Positions 8,285 to 17,191 of a stretch of 64,000 nt of DNA are shown one piece after another. Origin of the DNA: Calothrix brevissima NIES-22 (GTDB lineage: Bacteria; Cyanobacteriota; Cyanobacteriia; Cyanobacteriales; Nostocaceae). The stretch covers positions 2,525,083 through 2,589,082 of the forward strand of contig NZ_AP018207.1 of NCBI RefSeq assembly GCF_002367995.1, in the 5' to 3' direction. The stretch's first letter is position 1. Every line of letters starts with the position of its first letter. The translations under genes were made by a program, and so were the position numbers. The notes under the pieces were generated by a model, which was not told the DNA's origin, made no database searches, and was given only the letters and a program-made list of their open reading frames with translations.

Positions 8285-8647
8285 GTGAACATTGAAAGCA
8301 GAGAAAAACTGATTGAAATTATCAAATTAGCTCGTGGTTCCATGAGTCAGCGAGCATTTGGCAAGCTTTTGGGAGTTTCGGCTACTGCTGTTCAATTGTG
8401 GGAAAAGGGTGTAAACGTTCCAGATACCGAGTATTTAGCGAAAATAGCAGCTAGAGCAGGCTATACATTAGAAGAATTACTCGGTTGCTTAGATGGCAAA
8501 CCAATACCAGAAACTTCAGATTTAAGTTTGATTTTGAGACAAATCAAGCACATGCCTCTTAACCAAGTGGCGCAAATTGTTCAGGCGGCGGCTGATAGAC
8601 TGGCTGCTGTAGCCCAAGCGTCTGAAGATGAAGCCAAAGCTAGTTAA
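8285..8647 (+). CDS. XRE-family HTH transcriptional regulator, copy 1
   Basis: A 120-aa protein with one cro/C1-type helix-turn-helix at about residues 18-65: SMSQRAFGKLLGVSATAVQL, then WEKG and PDTEYLAKIAARAGYTLEELL. The C-terminal 50 residues are helical, possibly for dimerisation. The start is GTG at 8285. It is a close paralogue of the gene at 8914; the HTH halves are nearly identical and the C-terminal halves have diverged. Palindromic AAACTTGTAA sites flank both genes, so autoregulation is likely. Targets are unknown. Confidence 0.85.
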   Translation: MNIESREKLIEIIKLARGSMSQRAFGKLLGVSATAVQLWEKGVNVPDTEYLAKIAARAGYTLEELLGCLDGKPIPETSDLSLILRQIKHMPLNQVAQIVQAAADRLAAVAQASEDEAKAS

Positions 8648-8913: not shown

Positions 8914-9276
8914 GTGGATTTAGAAGCTAGAAAGAAACTGATTGAAGTCGTGAAAATGGCTCGTGGCTCGATGAGTCAAAGAGCTTTTGGTAAGCTTCTG
9001 GGCGTTTCGGCTACTGCGGTGCAATTGTGGGAAAAAGGCGAGTCGATTCCAGATACACAAAATTTAGCCAACATTGCAGCGAGAGCAGGCTATACGATGG
9101 AGGAATTGCTTAACTACCTTGGTGTTAAGCCAGTGTCAGAATCCTCCGATGTAAATCAGATTGTCAAGTACATCAAATCTATGCCGTTAAGCGAAGTCGC
9201 CATCATTGGGAGAGTGGTAATGGATAGATTAGCTGCGGCTGCGGAAGCTGCGGTAGATGAAGTTAAAGCCAGTTAA
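8914..9276 (+). CDS. XRE-family HTH transcriptional regulator, copy 2
   Basis: A 120-aa paralogue of the preceding gene with the same HTH (SMSQRAFGKLLGVSATAVQL). Differences cluster after residue 80, where copy 2 reads VNQIVKYIKSMPLSEVAIIG. The GTG start is in the same position as in copy 1. The pair arose by tandem duplication that also carried the 5' end of the divergent neighbour. A perfect 18-bp palindromic site lies 34 bp after its stop. Confidence 0.85.
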   Translation: MDLEARKKLIEVVKMARGSMSQRAFGKLLGVSATAVQLWEKGESIPDTQNLANIAARAGYTMEELLNYLGVKPVSESSDVNQIVKYIKSMPLSEVAIIGRVVMDRLAAAAEAAVDEVKAS

Positions 9277-10198: not shown

Positions 10199-10996
10199 GT
10201 GAAAACTGACATTATATTTTATCGGCTATTTCAAGAAATACCGAGTATTTTCTTTGAACTGATTAGCAATCATCCTGACGAAGCCAACAATTATCAGTTT
10301 GCATCCGTTGAAATTAAACAAACTTCATTTCGGATTGATGGCGTATTTTTACCTGTAGAAACCATTTATAAACCGATTTACTTCGTTGAAGTGCAATTTC
10401 AACAAGATGACGAAATTTACTCAAGACTGATAGCAGAAATATGTTTATACCTGCGTCAAAATAAACCCCAAAATGATTGGAATGCTGTAGTTTTATATCC
10501 GAACAGGAATGTAGATACAGGAGATATAAAACACTATCGGGAGTTTTTTGATAGTCAAAGGGTGAGAAGAATTTATCTTGATGAATTAGGTGATACTGCA
10601 ACATTACCAATTGGCATAGCTACTGTTAAATTAGTAATTGAAGACAAAGATATAGCTATTAACCAAGCAAGGGAGTTGATCGCCAGAACTAGACAACAGA
10701 CAAACTCTCAATTACAGCAACAATTATTACAATTAATAGAGACTATTTTGGTTTATAAATTTCCCAATATGAGTCGGGAGGAAATTGAAGCAATGTTTAG
10801 CTTGAGCGAGTTAAAACAAACCAGATTTTATCAGGAAGCTTTTCAGGAAGGGAAAGAAGAAGGTGAGCGTAGAGGTAAGTTAAAAGCAGTAATACCGATG
10901 TTGTCTGCTGGGTTGACTATAGAGCAAATAGCGCAAGCTTTGGAATTGAGTGTAGAGGAAGTCAGGCAGGCCGCACAGGAGCAGTCGTGTGATTGA
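10199..10996 (+). CDS. DUF2887 / Rpn-like PD-(D/E)XK nuclease-transposase family protein
   Basis: The 265-aa protein starts KTDIIFYRLFQEIPSIFFEL and has the nuclease-like core FRIDGVFLP ... YFVEVQFQQDDEIYSRLIAE, where D, E and Q residues resemble a PD-(D/E)XK site. Relatives in cyanobacteria are often annotated as Rpn-family recombination-promoting nucleases. The C-terminal 70 residues are helical and charged and end in a small HTH-like segment (LTIEQIAQALELSVEEVRQA). GTG is the start, since the family begins with MKTD. A MITE-like element lies directly upstream. Confidence 0.8.
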   Translation: MKTDIIFYRLFQEIPSIFFELISNHPDEANNYQFASVEIKQTSFRIDGVFLPVETIYKPIYFVEVQFQQDDEIYSRLIAEICLYLRQNKPQNDWNAVVLYPNRNVDTGDIKHYREFFDSQRVRRIYLDELGDTATLPIGIATVKLVIEDKDIAINQARELIARTRQQTNSQLQQQLLQLIETILVYKFPNMSREEIEAMFSLSELKQTRFYQEAFQEGKEEGERRGKLKAVIPMLSAGLTIEQIAQALELSVEEVRQAAQEQSCD

Positions 10997-11009
10997 AAGT
11001 AAATTATCA

Positions 11010-11065
11010 AGACCTCATCCACCCAGCTTCCCTCTGGTGTTAGGAGAGGACGGAGGGTGAGGTCT
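11010..11065. terminator. Hairpin between convergent genes
   Basis: AGACCTCA (11010-11017) pairs with TGAGGTCT (11058-11065), with further interrupted pairing inside. It separates the nuclease gene (+) from the end of the dynamin operon (-). It may be a bidirectional terminator or a dispersed palindromic repeat; the T-run is poor. Confidence 0.45.
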
Positions 11066-13367
11066 ATTGCAAACGAGTTCTTTTTAATGCAATTGATAGC
11101 TGTCGTAATCGTTCGCTAACTTCTAAATTAGATTCTTGTGACTTCAAGTTATCTGGTATTTCAGCTAAGAGGAGTGGATTTTCTTGCAGCCATTCATTAA
11201 GAGCTACTCCTGTCCAAAAGCCTTTTTTTTCTCTAAAACTATCAACTAAACCCTGAAGTTCCTGAATACAAAATGACTCAAAACCAGCAGCTTCAAAAAT
11301 TGCATAACGCAAGTATTCATCAAAGGCATTAATATCATTTTCGACTTCAAAAATTACAGCTTCTTGGGGAGGCCTGAAGTCATTAGCAACATCTATTACA
11401 AGTTGTGTTGCTGCACCAGCTAATTGTGTTGCTACTCCTGTTATACCTAGTACTTGTTGGCGAATTTCAGGGTTAAAGAGTAAATCAGAACCATATTTTA
11501 CATATCTTTTGAGAACTCTAAAAGCAGGTTCTTCACCAATATAGTAGTTATCAATAATTTCAATATCTACTCCCAGGCTTTTGATAATTTTATTGCGAGT
11601 ATCACTGTTAACTGGTCCACGAATCAATGCTTCTGCTACTGGACGCGCAAATCTGAGAAATAATACACTTAAACTATTTTCTAGTTTCGCTGAAAAATAA
11701 TCCTCAGATTTTTCAATTAACATAGCTTTTACTTGATTACTTCCCCATAATAAACTTGTCATATATTCAACTAATTTCAATGCTTCATTATTTAGTTCTA
11801 AAGCAAGTTTATGAGCTATTAAAGATAAAAGCTTAGTAATATCATTGTACAAATTATCACGCCAAGCAAAATTAGCTTTCATTCGATCAAACTCTGGATT
11901 TGAGTTTGCCAGAAAGATTGTATCTTTATTTTTAAATGTATTCTTCCTTAATTCCTGCATTGTTTCGTCAACAATTCGTATATATCTTTCTCGAAAGTTT
12001 TGTATTTGAGTGAAGGATGTAGCAGTTAAATTTTCTAAAGGTTTGTTAATCACAGAATCTTGATAATATTTTTGTAAATCAGCTTTGATTTCTTCCCATT
12101 TACGATCGTACCAGGCTGTAAATGCAGTCCGCCGATTACTTTCTTCAAGAAGTTTTGCTTCTTCTGGGTTTTCTGGATACTTTTTACTGACCAGAGTATA
12201 AATTTCTTCGGAATTGCTGAAAATTTTATTAAGAGATGTCTCACATCTTTTCTTTAATATAGATACACGTTCATTATTGATATAGTTAAAGATTTTTTCT
12301 TTAATTATGGGAATACCAGTTGCATCTTTATTTAAAGTCTCTTCATCAACAATTGCAGTTAATTTCTGTAATTTAGTTTTGATAGTATTTGCATCTTCAA
12401 GCTGTAATTTAGTTTCTGCTCCGGCTAAGTTATTTAAAATCAAATATGCACCAGCAGAACCATACACAATACGTTGACTGGGTAAGTTGGCTTTTTTTAA
12501 CCAATCTTGATATGCTACATCAATATGGGTTCTCAGTTCTTCTGGACTAGCTATAGAATCAATACGACTTAAAAAAACAAAGAGTTTGTCAGCAATAGTT
12601 ACATTTTGATCGCCAAGTTCTGTAAATTTGATAATGTCAAGTTCTCCACCTCTAATACTAGGATCACGTTGTATTACTATGACAGCATCACAGTCTGACA
12701 GCATTTTTTTTGCTTCATCAACGTGCTTTGCTAAACCAGAATCAGAACCAGGAACATCATAAAAAACTATACCTTCAGCTTGGGCAAGTTTGCTAGTGTA
12801 AAGCCTAGCCTCTAAAACAGCGTGAGCATATTTTTCATCTGCTACATATTTCTTCAGTGGTTCTTTAATATCTTCCAGCCTAGTAAATGGAAAAGTAAGA
12901 TTACCTTCTCTTCTTACCTGTTGTAAAGTTATTTCGTTTTCTTTTATAGTTTTGAGGTCTACTTGCGCGTTAGCTTTTTCAAGTTCCTGGAGTAAATTAC
13001 TAAACTCCTCTTCTGTTTTCGCTTGTACCTCTAGTCTTTGTTCAGATTCATTTGCAACTGAATAAATTTGTGTTGTTGTGAATGTACATCTTCCTCTCTT
13101 CGCTGGTAGTAAATCACATTCTAACCAAGCATTAATAAAAGTACTTTTTCCGGCTTTCTCTAATCCGACAACAGCAATACGAAACTCACGTTTTTTGAGC
13201 CTTTCAAGTTGACGACGAGTTGGTTCTGCTTCCTGTAAAAGTGCTTCTTTTAATCGCAGAGGAACTTGAGCTTGGGGTAACATAGCTAAATCTACTGCGT
13301 GTCGCTGCACATTTAGAGCATCACTAAGACGAGTTTCATAATAAGAAGAGGCTGTTTTCCAATCCAT
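11064..13367 (-). CDS. Dynamin-like large GTPase, partner B
   Basis: The 767-aa protein has a GTPase domain at about residues 60-330: P-loop GLEKAGKST (68-76), switch I threonines in CTFTTTQ, DVPG (204-207), and LSRID as the base-recognition motif, which departs from the usual (T/N)KxD. Long helical stalk regions follow. A glycine/alanine-rich hydrophobic segment near residues 640-665 (VLGITGVATQLAGAATQLV) could be a membrane paddle. ATG follows AAGGA. It is the last gene of a four-gene operon, 11 bp after the small membrane protein. Bacterial dynamin-like proteins remodel or protect membranes, often as tandem pairs. Confidence 0.85.
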   Translation of the reverse strand: MDWKTASSYYETRLSDALNVQRHAVDLAMLPQAQVPLRLKEALLQEAEPTRRQLERLKKREFRIAVVGLEKAGKSTFINAWLECDLLPAKRGRCTFTTTQIYSVANESEQRLEVQAKTEEEFSNLLQELEKANAQVDLKTIKENEITLQQVRREGNLTFPFTRLEDIKEPLKKYVADEKYAHAVLEARLYTSKLAQAEGIVFYDVPGSDSGLAKHVDEAKKMLSDCDAVIVIQRDPSIRGGELDIIKFTELGDQNVTIADKLFVFLSRIDSIASPEELRTHIDVAYQDWLKKANLPSQRIVYGSAGAYLILNNLAGAETKLQLEDANTIKTKLQKLTAIVDEETLNKDATGIPIIKEKIFNYINNERVSILKKRCETSLNKIFSNSEEIYTLVSKKYPENPEEAKLLEESNRRTAFTAWYDRKWEEIKADLQKYYQDSVINKPLENLTATSFTQIQNFRERYIRIVDETMQELRKNTFKNKDTIFLANSNPEFDRMKANFAWRDNLYNDITKLLSLIAHKLALELNNEALKLVEYMTSLLWGSNQVKAMLIEKSEDYFSAKLENSLSVLFLRFARPVAEALIRGPVNSDTRNKIIKSLGVDIEIIDNYYIGEEPAFRVLKRYVKYGSDLLFNPEIRQQVLGITGVATQLAGAATQLVIDVANDFRPPQEAVIFEVENDINAFDEYLRYAIFEAAGFESFCIQELQGLVDSFREKKGFWTGVALNEWLQENPLLLAEIPDNLKSQESNLEVSERLRQLSIALKRTRLQ

Positions 13368-13378
13368 TTGTATATTCC

Positions 13379-13909
13379 TTAAACACGGTTAAATTTTTCT
13401 AAACCAGATACAGATAGAGATTTAAGACCAGCTAATTCTGTAATCACGCTTTGTCCATTAGCAGGCAAATTTCTCTTTAAAATATATGGAATTTTTTTAC
13501 CAATCATTTCTTGTCCATCAGCAATATTAATTCTGACGTAAATTTCTCCTTTTTCGCTGACATTTGCAATATCTTCGTCTGTTTCTAATCGCTGCTGAGT
13601 GGTATTAGCATCTTCAACACTCGTACATAAAAAATAGGAAGCAGCATCTATAAGTTTCTCTATTTCAGAAACATTTATTTGAGCATTTTTTCGCAAATTA
13701 CCAATCGCATTTGCTGGCACAATCAGACATAAAGCTGCTGGAAGTAATTGTCGAGGCGGAGGTACTGGCTTTGGAGGAGGATCTGCTGTTGGTGAACTTT
13801 TGGTGCTACCAGCAATTTTTTTTTGTTCCTTTGTATTTTCGATATACCAATAACATGAAGTAAATCCAGTGAGGCTACAAGCCATTACCACAATCCAAAA
13901 TAAGTCCAT
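13379..13909 (-). CDS. Small single-pass membrane protein of the dynamin operon
   Basis: The 176-aa protein starts MDLFWIVVMACSLTGFTSCY, a likely transmembrane segment or lipoprotein-like signal. A proline-rich linker (PPPKPVPPPRQ) follows, then a soluble domain with no recognised family. The chosen ATG is the last A of a 10-A run, with AGGA about 11 nt upstream. An in-frame ATG at 13933 is the alternative. The 5' end overlaps the upstream 97-aa gene by 35 bp in another frame. Loss of one A in the run would fuse the two proteins. Confidence 0.7.
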   Translation of the reverse strand: MDLFWIVVMACSLTGFTSCYWYIENTKEQKKIAGSTKSSPTADPPPKPVPPPRQLLPAALCLIVPANAIGNLRKNAQINVSEIEKLIDAASYFLCTSVEDANTTQQRLETDEDIANVSEKGEIYVRINIADGQEMIGKKIPYILKRNLPANGQSVITELAGLKSLSVSGLEKFNRV

Positions 13910-14168
13910 TTTTTTTTTCGTCCTTGAAAGCATTGAGAAATGAATCGTTGGGATTACTTATTAGTCCCTCAACAATTTTCTTGTCATCATCCAGTGTTGC
14001 AGAAGGTTTGATAGCAAGATAATTACAAATATCTGTAAAAATTGATGGATCTTTATAAAGTATTATTTGCATTACCTTATATAGAACACCCCGCCCCTGA
14101 TTTTCAATTTGAGGGTACACTTCTTCAAACACTTGATTGTACAACTCTTTGAGTTTGTTATTTGCCAC
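13875..14168 (-). CDS. Small soluble protein of the dynamin operon
   Basis: A 97-aa protein of unknown family, mostly helical (NNKLKELYNQVFEEVYPQIE), with a second half about KPSATLDDDKKIVEGL. GTG start, 6 bp after the stop of the first dynamin gene. The C-terminal residues after DEKK are encoded beyond the 10-A run and may not belong to the main product if slippage joins this frame to the next gene. An adaptor role between the GTPases and the membrane protein is only a guess. Confidence 0.6.
   Translation of the reverse strand: MANNKLKELYNQVFEEVYPQIENQGRGVLYKVMQIILYKDPSIFTDICNYLAIKPSATLDDDKKIVEGLISNPNDSFLNAFKDEKKNGLILDCGNGL
13909..13918 (-). other. 10-A homopolymer at overlapping frames (possible slippage site)
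   Basis: The coding strand has ten consecutive A. In the 97-aa frame it reads GAA AAA AAA AAT; in the next gene's frame it reads AAA AAA AAA ATG. A transcript with nine or twelve A would read through as one protein of about 260 residues with a transmembrane segment in the middle. Confidence 0.6.
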
Positions 14169-14174
14169 TCGATT

Positions 14175-16574
14175 TTAAGACTCCTCTTTTAAGGATATTC
14201 CCAAGCTAGAAAATTCTTCTGTAAGGGCTTGCGCTTTTTGTTGCATAGGTTGCCAAACTTTTCTTATGTTTTCATAATCTAAAGTAATTTCTTGGTTAGC
14301 TTTATCAAGTCTGGCTTGATAACGGTCAATAATCTCATTTTGAATTTTGTCTACGTTTTTTTTAAGACAATCAATTTGTTCTATTAACCAGCGTGCAATT
14401 TGATTGACGATTTTTAGTTCTTCCTCTTTCGACTGAAGTGTCCAACCCGTGAGTAAATCTTCTACACTGGGAATTTCAGCGTTATCGCTAGAACGTGTTT
14501 GATATTCTGTTTCATAAATTGTTTTTTTCCATAGCAACCAAATTCTTTTTTCTCTTGCTACCTGTATAGCTTCTTGCCAAGTTCCTTTATTAATAGGAAA
14601 GCCTGCTTGAAACCGGAAGTTAAATGTTGGTTGATTCTCAACTTTACTCAGTTGTGATTCCGGAAATTTGATTGCTATATTAGGTGCAATATTATTGGCT
14701 CCTGTTTCTATATAAGATAAATAGCAATTAAAAAGTTCTAGAACTGCTTGATACATTCTATTTAATTCTTGCTCAGAAATTTGCTTTAACACATCCTCCA
14801 TCACAATATTCAAATGAATAGCCAATTCATTTAACTCTTCATTTATTTGTTTAAGTTTACTTTTCTCTGCATCTGTTCTGGCTTCCATTATTTTACCTTC
14901 TTTAGCAACGGAAGCTGTATAGCCTAAATTCACTAGTCGGTTTAAGTTTCTTTCTAGCAAATTGACATTTAAAACATTTGCTTTTTTTAAATTCGGACTG
15001 TCTAAGTCTACTCGTCCAGTTTCTAAAGATTTTGCAACTGCTTCCAAAACTTGGTTGATTCCTTGACCTAATTCTCGTCGCCATCCATAAAGTGGATATA
15101 ATTTTTCTCCTAATGAGTTATAAGGTTCTACATCCTTGAGTTCCGAAATTGTTGATTCGAGATACAGCACTGGATCGTCTTCTGATTCTTCTGCTATAAC
15201 TTGTTTAATTTTTCTATCTATTTTCTCAAAAGGTTCTCTTAAATTCGTATCACTAATTTCTAAAAAATGCTGAATTCCTGATCTTATATAGGATATATTT
15301 TGGCATTCTTGCTGATATTCTTCTTCTGAACTATTAAGAATTGCTGTTGTTGTTTGTGTAGCCCATTCTGCGATCGCATTTCCTGCGGCTAAATTAAAAC
15401 GTTCTATAATTTGTGGAATTACTAACTGGGGAAAATGCTGAGTAATATGTTCCCTTAAATACTGGTGAAATTCTTCGGCATAAGACTTTTGCCATAAGGA
15501 ATCAGCAACTCTATTTCGGTCATGTCTAGACCATTTTTCAGGTTTACGCGGTAGGTCGTCTAATATATTGTCATCAATTAATCCATTAAAATGCTCATCT
15601 GCTTTTCCACAAGCTTCTAAGCTGTTTTCTTCATTACTTTTGATTTGAAGCGATAATAAAGCAGGCCATGTACTAAGTTTTACTACTTTTAAGTTATCAA
15701 TATCTTCTGTATATTCTTTTAATTGTTCTGTCAATTCAGTTTTAATACTATGTATAGTGTTTTCAACAAAGCGGTTTTCTGTGTCTGGCCAGGTTCTATC
15801 TGCTCGAAAAACGTCAATACGATTCAGGGTAAAAAGCATCCGCGCCGGAGAACCCCCTAAATCCTTGACCTGTTGTACAACCTGTTGCAACAAACTTTTT
15901 ATTTTCTGTGGATCTACCTCTACACTATTATATGTAACTATACATAAAGCTTCTCGACACTGTTTGATCACATTTGCATTACCTTCATCACCCACATAGG
16001 CTAAACCAGGTAAATCTAGAATTCTTACCTTGGTTTTTTCTGGTAGTTTTAACTGAGATTCATTTAACAGCCTGAAAGGATAAAAAATTGTAGATTGTGG
16101 ACAGGCTAAATTCGGTTGTTTGTTTCTGTTTTCGATATAACTTATCATCACTTGGTATAAGCGTTGATAAATTCTATCTTCAGTAATATTTCTCCATTCT
16201 CCACACTCCCATAATGCGCCTGGTGTTTCATGGATGATGAGAGATTTTTCTTGACTGTATTCAACAGTAACTGTCCCCGCACTCATTTCACTTACTGCTA
16301 CCGGCACAATTTCTGCTCCGCATAGCAAATTCACCAAAGTACTTTTTCCACTACTAGTAGTTCCAGTAGTAGCAAGGGTAAGAGTTGGATTACTAAGCTC
16401 ATCAACTAGTATGCTAAGAGCTTTCTCTAATTTATCTGAGAGTTCTTGCATCTCAGAATGGTAAGTTTCTGGTAAATGCTGAGATATTTCTGCGTAAAAG
16501 TTATTCCAGTATTTAGCAAGGAGTTTCGCCTTGAATTCTACACTTTCAAATATTTTGTATACTTTATTACTCAT
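14175..16574 (-). CDS. Dynamin-like large GTPase, partner A
   Basis: The 799-aa protein has a GTPase domain near residues 60-330: P-loop GTTSSGKST (71-79), DLPG (187-190) and NRID (251-254). Switch I is probably in SEMSAGTVTV. The rest is helical, with coiled-coil-like stretches near 560-620 and 720-790 (KKNVDKIQNEIIDRYQARL). No clear membrane paddle is seen. It is the first gene of the operon. It differs strongly from partner B, so the pair is ancient rather than a recent duplication. Dynamin-like identity is from motif spacing and size. Confidence 0.83.
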   Translation of the reverse strand: MSNKVYKIFESVEFKAKLLAKYWNNFYAEISQHLPETYHSEMQELSDKLEKALSILVDELSNPTLTLATTGTTSSGKSTLVNLLCGAEIVPVAVSEMSAGTVTVEYSQEKSLIIHETPGALWECGEWRNITEDRIYQRLYQVMISYIENRNKQPNLACPQSTIFYPFRLLNESQLKLPEKTKVRILDLPGLAYVGDEGNANVIKQCREALCIVTYNSVEVDPQKIKSLLQQVVQQVKDLGGSPARMLFTLNRIDVFRADRTWPDTENRFVENTIHSIKTELTEQLKEYTEDIDNLKVVKLSTWPALLSLQIKSNEENSLEACGKADEHFNGLIDDNILDDLPRKPEKWSRHDRNRVADSLWQKSYAEEFHQYLREHITQHFPQLVIPQIIERFNLAAGNAIAEWATQTTTAILNSSEEEYQQECQNISYIRSGIQHFLEISDTNLREPFEKIDRKIKQVIAEESEDDPVLYLESTISELKDVEPYNSLGEKLYPLYGWRRELGQGINQVLEAVAKSLETGRVDLDSPNLKKANVLNVNLLERNLNRLVNLGYTASVAKEGKIMEARTDAEKSKLKQINEELNELAIHLNIVMEDVLKQISEQELNRMYQAVLELFNCYLSYIETGANNIAPNIAIKFPESQLSKVENQPTFNFRFQAGFPINKGTWQEAIQVAREKRIWLLWKKTIYETEYQTRSSDNAEIPSVEDLLTGWTLQSKEEELKIVNQIARWLIEQIDCLKKNVDKIQNEIIDRYQARLDKANQEITLDYENIRKVWQPMQQKAQALTEEFSSLGISLKEES

Positions 16575-17191
16575 TTTTATATACTTAGGTCGGATAAAAC
16601 TAAAAATATTATAGACAGGCTCAACATTAAAGCGCCTGTTTTTTACATGATTTTTGATGTATTGTCGAACAAATTTCCTAATAAATTAAGTAAATACAAG
16701 TACTCAGAGAATTATAAATAAATTCTGTAATCGCCTCATAACTTTAGGGAGCATAAATTATTGTTAACAATTTAAAAGTTAAGTTACAGTTAACACTAGT
16801 TACGTTATGAACATGGAAAAAGCTTTCCCAATCCTCAAAGTATTTATCAGCTATGGTTATGATTCGCAACGGCAGTTAGTACTTGACCAATAAAACTTTA
16901 CGTTCTTTGTAATTAAGACTTCAGTCAAAAAGTCAAGGACTAAAGTCCTAACTACAAGCTTACCCACGCATCTGGCATTGGGTGAGGGAGTAATATAGTA
17001 AGCCAATGTCGAAATGGGGGCTGTAATTTAGGTATATATAACTTAATTAGATGTGAGCGTGACAATCTCAGACTCTTTTTTTATCATTGCGGAAAATTTC
17101 CCTGACGAAATATTAATTAAATTTTGTTAAGATTGACACGGCAATAGCTCTTCATCCCCCAACTACCCATCCCCTACCTGAGAGAAACTTG
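16575..17191. other. Divergent intergenic region, dynamin operon / ABC-F gene
   Basis: About 615 bp, AT-rich, with no supported gene. A TATAAT box on the - strand (16608-16613) lies 34 bp upstream of the first dynamin gene; no matching -35 is clear. A small hairpin AGGAC-TAAA-GTCCT is at 16936-16949. TTAAGATTGACACGGCAA near 17130 may belong to the ABC-F promoter. Short open frames here look random. Confidence 0.45.

Follow-up and report, generated by a model that had tools for sequence, protein, structure and literature searches.

Eleos is an antiphage system composed of LeoA and LeoBC, and dynamins also carry out ordinary membrane upkeep. The role of bacterial dynamin pairs is a long-standing question. 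Tandem A and B dynamins have been reported from cyanobacteria, including the Nostoc BDLP (PMC5827413). JukB, from the Juk system (JukA-JukB), is reported to open pores in the EPI vesicle of the phage, and phospholipases are reported among the Juk effectors (PMC13282480). The DO-GTPase/GAP1 conflict systems are described as combining GTPases, in many cases two of them, with effectors that vary (PMC7159879).

We analyzed 64,000 nt of Calothrix brevissima NIES-22 (GCF_002367995.1, NZ_AP018207.1, positions 2,525,083-2,589,082 of the forward strand), here together referred to as the window, and found an operon that resembles Eleos and Juk and is a member of neither. As originally predicted, four closely spaced open reading frames share one strand, and the two large products are dynamin-like GTPases. 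The frames, of 799, 97, 184 and 767 aa and all read from the minus strand, are separated by 6 bp at the first junction, overlap by 59 nt at the second and are separated by 11 bp at the third. The first gene, A (14175..16574, minus strand), encodes the 799-aa protein, a Leo-type dynamin GTPase, and the third gene, B (11064..13367, minus strand), the 767-aa dynamin GTPase that is our proposed effector. Both are above the Pfam Dynamin_N cut-off (8e-11 for A and 8.7e-15 for B), so that both possess the dynamin G-domain that marks bacterial dynamin-like proteins. Between them lies a gene here named M, read in the window as the 97-aa and 184-aa frames; the predicted tandem dynamin pair with a previously unplaced membrane protein was correct. 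The hydrophobic C-terminal segment claimed for B did not hold up, since the Kyte-Doolittle score of B stays at or below 1.4 in every 19-residue stretch. It is M that contributes the system's clear membrane helix, with a score of 1.52 (weak) in the window copy and up to 3.1 in relatives. A scan for promoters and terminators gave fewer sites than in shuffled sequence.

The likeness to Eleos lies in two dynamin-type GTPases encoded in one operon and in the PADLOC matches of window A to LeoA (1.3e-8, best stretch 222-764) and LeoBC (4.4e-8). These matches are weak and uneven. In the nearest relative, from Nostoc paludosum (L051), A matches LeoA at only 0.0025 and LeoBC better, at 1e-8. Window B is not LeoBC-like (just 0.035), and the Nostoc paludosum B, which is 83% identical to it, reaches 1.3e-4 over 48 residues. 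Unlike in Eleos, a membrane-anchored M sits between the GTPases here, and the A-type GTPase also pairs with a non-dynamin protein, X; the LeoABC account in PMC4159319 likewise describes no M. The likeness to Nostoc BDLP1 (PDB 2J68) and its tandem partner is that of a cyanobacterial dynamin pair with a short G-domain similarity, 2J68 matching the B profile over 58 residues (E 0.001) and the A profile over 63 residues (3.4e-4). However, neither A nor B shows full-length similarity to 2J68, and the profiles of A and B align with each other at the G-domain start only. Elsewhere, the window genome contains a separate BDLP1-type gene (693 aa, 1372 bits to 2J68) whose neighbour encodes 745 aa, with no M between the two (L134:3360-7957).

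The likeness to Juk comes through sister modules, where 12 of 14 third proteins, called X, begin with a JukB-like N-domain. Here, however, X is partnered by a dynamin and by M, and the window operon is without X. JukB models matched none of the four window proteins, and in the scan of these four and of X no JukA model matched. Membership in the DO-GTPase/GAP1 systems was considered and rejected: according to PMC7159879, those GTPases form another TRAFAC family, accompanied by GAP1, and the word "dynamin" is absent from its main text.

The split gene M and its probable internal start

The original prediction treated the two small frames as separate genes. We searched both fragments in 195 genomes of the order (counts include the own genome); the 97-aa query matched 6 of them and the 184-aa query 18, at least one of these 18 by chance. 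In all five other genomes that the 97-aa query matched, the two parts are joined in a single frame of 254–304 aa, and M of Nostoc paludosum is an intact single frame. Likewise, among 45 relatives with M directly before B, 35 have an undivided M frame of 240 aa or longer; it is shorter in the other 10, and some short copies are without the N-domain. Single M frames in relatives thus rule out four separate genes, and by this homology the two small ORFs are the halves of one gene M. The N-terminal half (13875..14168, minus strand), which holds the N-domain, is homologous to the start of the single-frame proteins; the C-terminal half (13379..13933, minus strand) holds the membrane helix, the Pro-rich linker and the conserved C-domain. 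The point where the reading frame shifts is marked by ten consecutive A on the coding strand (13909..13918, minus strand), the longest homopolymer in the 64 kb. Only two homopolymer runs (A/T of at least 9, G/C of at least 8) occur in the window, 13909-13918 and 13816-13824, and both are in M. The split may impair the window copy.

Across 46 M proteins, a variable N-domain is followed by one membrane helix and a Pro-rich linker; the C-domain comes last, has ~120 residues and closes, in the consensus, with SGLE-x-FNRI. The net charge is −0.15 before the helix and +2.31 after it in 39 genes, being higher after it in 32 of the 39, and because basic residues follow the helix, the C-domain is predicted to be cytosolic. 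For the 97-aa and 184-aa window proteins, nothing in Pfam scored better than 0.05, and NCBIfam and PADLOC gave no match; any single Pfam family matches at most 4 of the 46 members, and none scores better than 0.007. A PDB search with M gave no clear relative, the best match (0.0028) being to a designed protein, and we dismissed such weak matches as noise from coiled coils or low complexity. The Nostoc paludosum M also gave two NCBIfam matches (1.1e-4 and 2.4e-4), which are far below the cut-offs and were likewise dismissed. Three M-like matches were set aside as chance. One, to the 184-aa query in G121 (L049), is a 486-aa transporter-like protein; the other two, at G000:C1:6338264 and in G289 (L198, L201), both stand beside a thymidylate-synthase-like gene, and the L198 protein matches dCTP deaminase (3.2e-8). 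M is therefore a family without a Pfam model or a clear PDB relative, and in the open-licence literature we found no paper recognisably about M or about the A-M-X arrangement. At two loci (L062:5885-7488 and L063:1340-2940), two M genes are adjacent between A and B, the second being N-terminally shortened.

The relatives also carry a candidate start codon within M. Of 37 M genes, 26 have a Met in the interval from −10 to +4 around the beginning of the helix, compared with 15% for windows of equal size; this window was chosen after the sequences had been seen, and the loci are partly related. Of these 26 Met codons, 12 have a Shine-Dalgarno match of at least 5 bases. The background at internal Met codons is 4.5% in A (n = 352), 4.1% in B (n = 294) and 7.4% elsewhere in M (n = 94). 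By the same score, the starts of the longest frames reach 62% in B (n = 55), 41% in M (n = 46) and 4.5% in A (n = 44), those of A thus scoring no better than background. With both Met and Shine-Dalgarno matches enriched near the helix, an internal start that gives a short form of M, helix plus C-domain, is the simplest reading and a likely one. The junction Met of the Nostoc paludosum M has no strong Shine-Dalgarno match. In the window, these statistics make the ATG at 13909-13907 (minus strand) the likelier start of the C-terminal half, giving 176 aa, and a Shine-Dalgarno-like AAGGA (13921..13925, minus strand) stands 11 bases upstream. The motif AAGGA precedes each of the two homopolymer runs of M (13816-13824 and 13909-13918) on the coding strand.

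Distribution of the operon and exchange of its third gene

A genome scan with the B alignment retained 80 of 125 confirmed loci. We counted 53 of these (L051-L103) and dropped L077 and L092, where B lies at a contig edge, which left 51. M adjoins B in 45 of the 51 loci, and the order A-M-B, with A whole or partial, is found in 43. The expectation that the middle part recurs beside homologous GTPase pairs thus stood, as one gene and not as two. In six of the 51 (L071, L082, L095, L096, L098, L100), M was missing by the first profile, and neither M nor M′, its counterpart in the sister modules, was found in the 27 distant loci L104-L130. The relatives include Proteobacteria, such as Methylococcales (L083-L087) and Desulfobacterales (L098), mostly as metagenome bins. 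No relative of the operon was found in the viral contigs scanned.

Among 386 cyanobacterial genomes, 13 contain a full-length B and all 13 contain M. In G155 the contig ends within B and M is present. Sizeable B pieces (121–383 of 752 model positions) without an M match occur in five genomes (G097, G390, G398, G448, G275) and scraps of B only in G128, G154 and G411, while G153 has A-M and no recognisable B. Copy numbers are minima, as only the best candidates per genome were scored (two for A and for B, six for M). The distances among A, M and B co-vary over 35 loci (r 0.80–0.87, 0 of 2000 permutations), as shared ancestry alone could also produce. At one locus (L039:6376-14168), a partial tandem copy, an A piece and then M, precedes a complete A-M-B.

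We then searched the 386 genomes with a further alignment, A3, of nine rows including three A′ (threshold E 1e-20), and inspected all 34 genomes that matched. A-M-B was present in 14 of them, and 13 had a sister module, A′-M′-X, at loci L199, L200, L050, L204-L212 and L215. A profile of A built from A-M-B operons only scores 210 bits against A′ in L199, 205 in L050 and 192 in L200 (part), and the profiles of M and M′ match with E 4.4e-9 over helix, linker and C-domain. A′ is broken or has stops in L200, L210, L211 and L215. The other matching genomes are G153, with its A-M; G265, where A-M occurs three times and both B and X are missing; G064, which has an A′ piece and X and in which no M′ was found; and G392, G083, G238 and G228, with an A-type gene or piece, where neither M nor X was found. 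Two tandem A-M pairs without B or X occupy L203:3877-10684 in a 2.6-Mb cyanobacterial genome. The helix score of M′ exceeds 1.8 in ten cases; a Met lies near the helix in 8 of these 10 and has a strong Shine-Dalgarno match in 4 of the 8 (L200, L050, L205, L215), although in L205 this Met is residue 15 and may be a plain start.

The X proteins have 391–462 aa in 12 of 14 cases, 585 in L212 and 304 in L213, where the N-terminus is missing. Their JukB-like match covers just the ~110–130 N-terminal residues. In the X of L212 (L212:9064-10818), the JukB-like part is replaced by a class-3 lipase N-terminus (Lipase_3, 1.2e-31) ahead of the same C-terminal part. B and X have no detectable relation, and the weak PDB matches of X (best 0.0048) were rejected as coiled-coil or low-complexity noise. 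Mixed forms also exist: at L098, M′ stands directly before B, and at L082, A′-M′ faces B on the opposite strand. These data suggest that X is interchangeable with B as the third gene on a common A-M core.

A proposed conflict system and its alternatives

The architecture of the module is well supported by comparison, as regards the gene order, the A–A′ and M–M′ homologies, the swapped third gene, the empty sites given below, and the Met and Shine-Dalgarno enrichment. A common A-M with an interchangeable third gene argues for sensing and transmission by A and M, with execution left to B or X. Our preferred reading, which we hold to be somewhat probable, is a modular, membrane-directed conflict system, probably antiphage, with A as switch, M as adaptor and B or X as interchangeable effector. 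A JukB-like or lipase third gene and the patchy distribution of the cassette lend indirect support to a role in membrane surveillance or phage defence.

GTPase A, as the probable sensor or switch, would respond to an infection-related disturbance of the membrane and assemble at M. As membrane adaptor, M would couple A to the effector at the membrane through its C-domain, and the internal start would supply a short form without the N-domain. A at M could then drive B, a second dynamin and putative membrane-remodelling effector, to remodel or breach the membrane, so that phage production would stop; a dynamin in the effector slot would work on membranes mechanically, a role that we ascribe to B from its position. 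In the sister modules the same A-M core would drive X, JukB-like or lipase, instead. Of these steps, we infer the use of the internal start, the sensing, the direction of signalling, the effector role of B and phage as the trigger. A bolder version, which we offer tentatively, is that A-M could be an undescribed general membrane-targeting platform in which a dynamin GTPase and a two-product membrane adaptor, M in its full length and in the internally started short form, load interchangeable membrane-attacking effectors (second dynamin, JukB-like pore former, lipase), with the run of ten A possibly switching the long form of M in the window strain. The A-M core ties dynamin pairs to JukB-like and lipase proteins, and with components in common with the X modules, swapping effectors becomes a way to test what a dynamin pair does. 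The internal start of M is testable as well.

The same genes could instead form a module for membrane repair or stress, in which A and B would be a hetero-oligomeric fusion or fission machine, M its receptor and X an alternative membrane-stabilising partner. Bacterial dynamin genes mostly come in pairs, whose products may work as hetero-oligomers (PMC6104087), and DynA of B. subtilis has been tied to phage resistance as well as to surveillance of the membrane against antibiotics (PMC8844932). We nevertheless think this unlikely, as a patchy cassette with decayed remnants, in which B is replaced by a lipase or JukB-like protein, suits attack better, and the BDLP1-type pair in the same genome does without an M. 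It is quite improbable that the pair promotes the production of membrane vesicles as LeoABC does, with defence a side effect or absent. Knockouts of leoA or leoB in ETEC cut vesicle release by roughly 50% (PMC4159319) and A does match LeoA weakly, but that similarity is uneven, and M and X are without a Leo counterpart in the same paper.

Another explanation bears on the split of M only and not on the system, namely that the window operon is decaying or mis-sequenced and that the split, which would serve no function, either arose by recent mutation or reflects a base-calling error in the homopolymer. We judge this to be an even call. The split falls in the run of ten A while most relatives have a single frame, and dN/dS relative to Nostoc paludosum is higher in M (0.41 for the N-part and 0.32 for the C-part) than in A (0.13) and B (0.19). 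However, neither A nor B is disrupted in the window, the two parts of M still differ from their Nostoc paludosum counterpart mainly by silent changes, and an internal start would keep a form with helix and C-domain expressed.

The insert and its empty sites in the genus

The operon is held in an insert of ~6.0 kb (10966..16997, edges ± ~30 bases) that is absent at the same site in all seven other genomes of the genus. The flanks, 6.0 kb apart in the window, are 43–114 bases apart in these seven, so either the operon is a compact insert or seven separate losses took place. Of the eight genus genomes, one has a full-length A, and G198 has a 98-residue partial match. Target-site repeats were sought at the insert ends and none was established. 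The empty sites provide natural strains with and without the operon for comparison.

We also compared 81 flanking proteins (130–900 aa) beside 13 operons with a control of 81 proteins drawn at random from 126 in 13 stretches. The flanks matched 57 PADLOC families and the control 59, with no clear enrichment of defence genes. Among the 25 families listed per set, matches to Csx1 and to Cas12f/TnpB-like proteins (3 each of 81, too few to count) appear near the operons only.

A gene for a DUF2887 protein (4.2e-85; 10199-10996) runs up to the insert's left edge and is mostly missing in two of the seven genus genomes (L226 and L230). Beside the insert site there is also a tandem pair of similar XRE-type HTH genes (8285-8647 and 8914-9276), whose copy number, as the alignments suggest, varies among the genomes of the genus.
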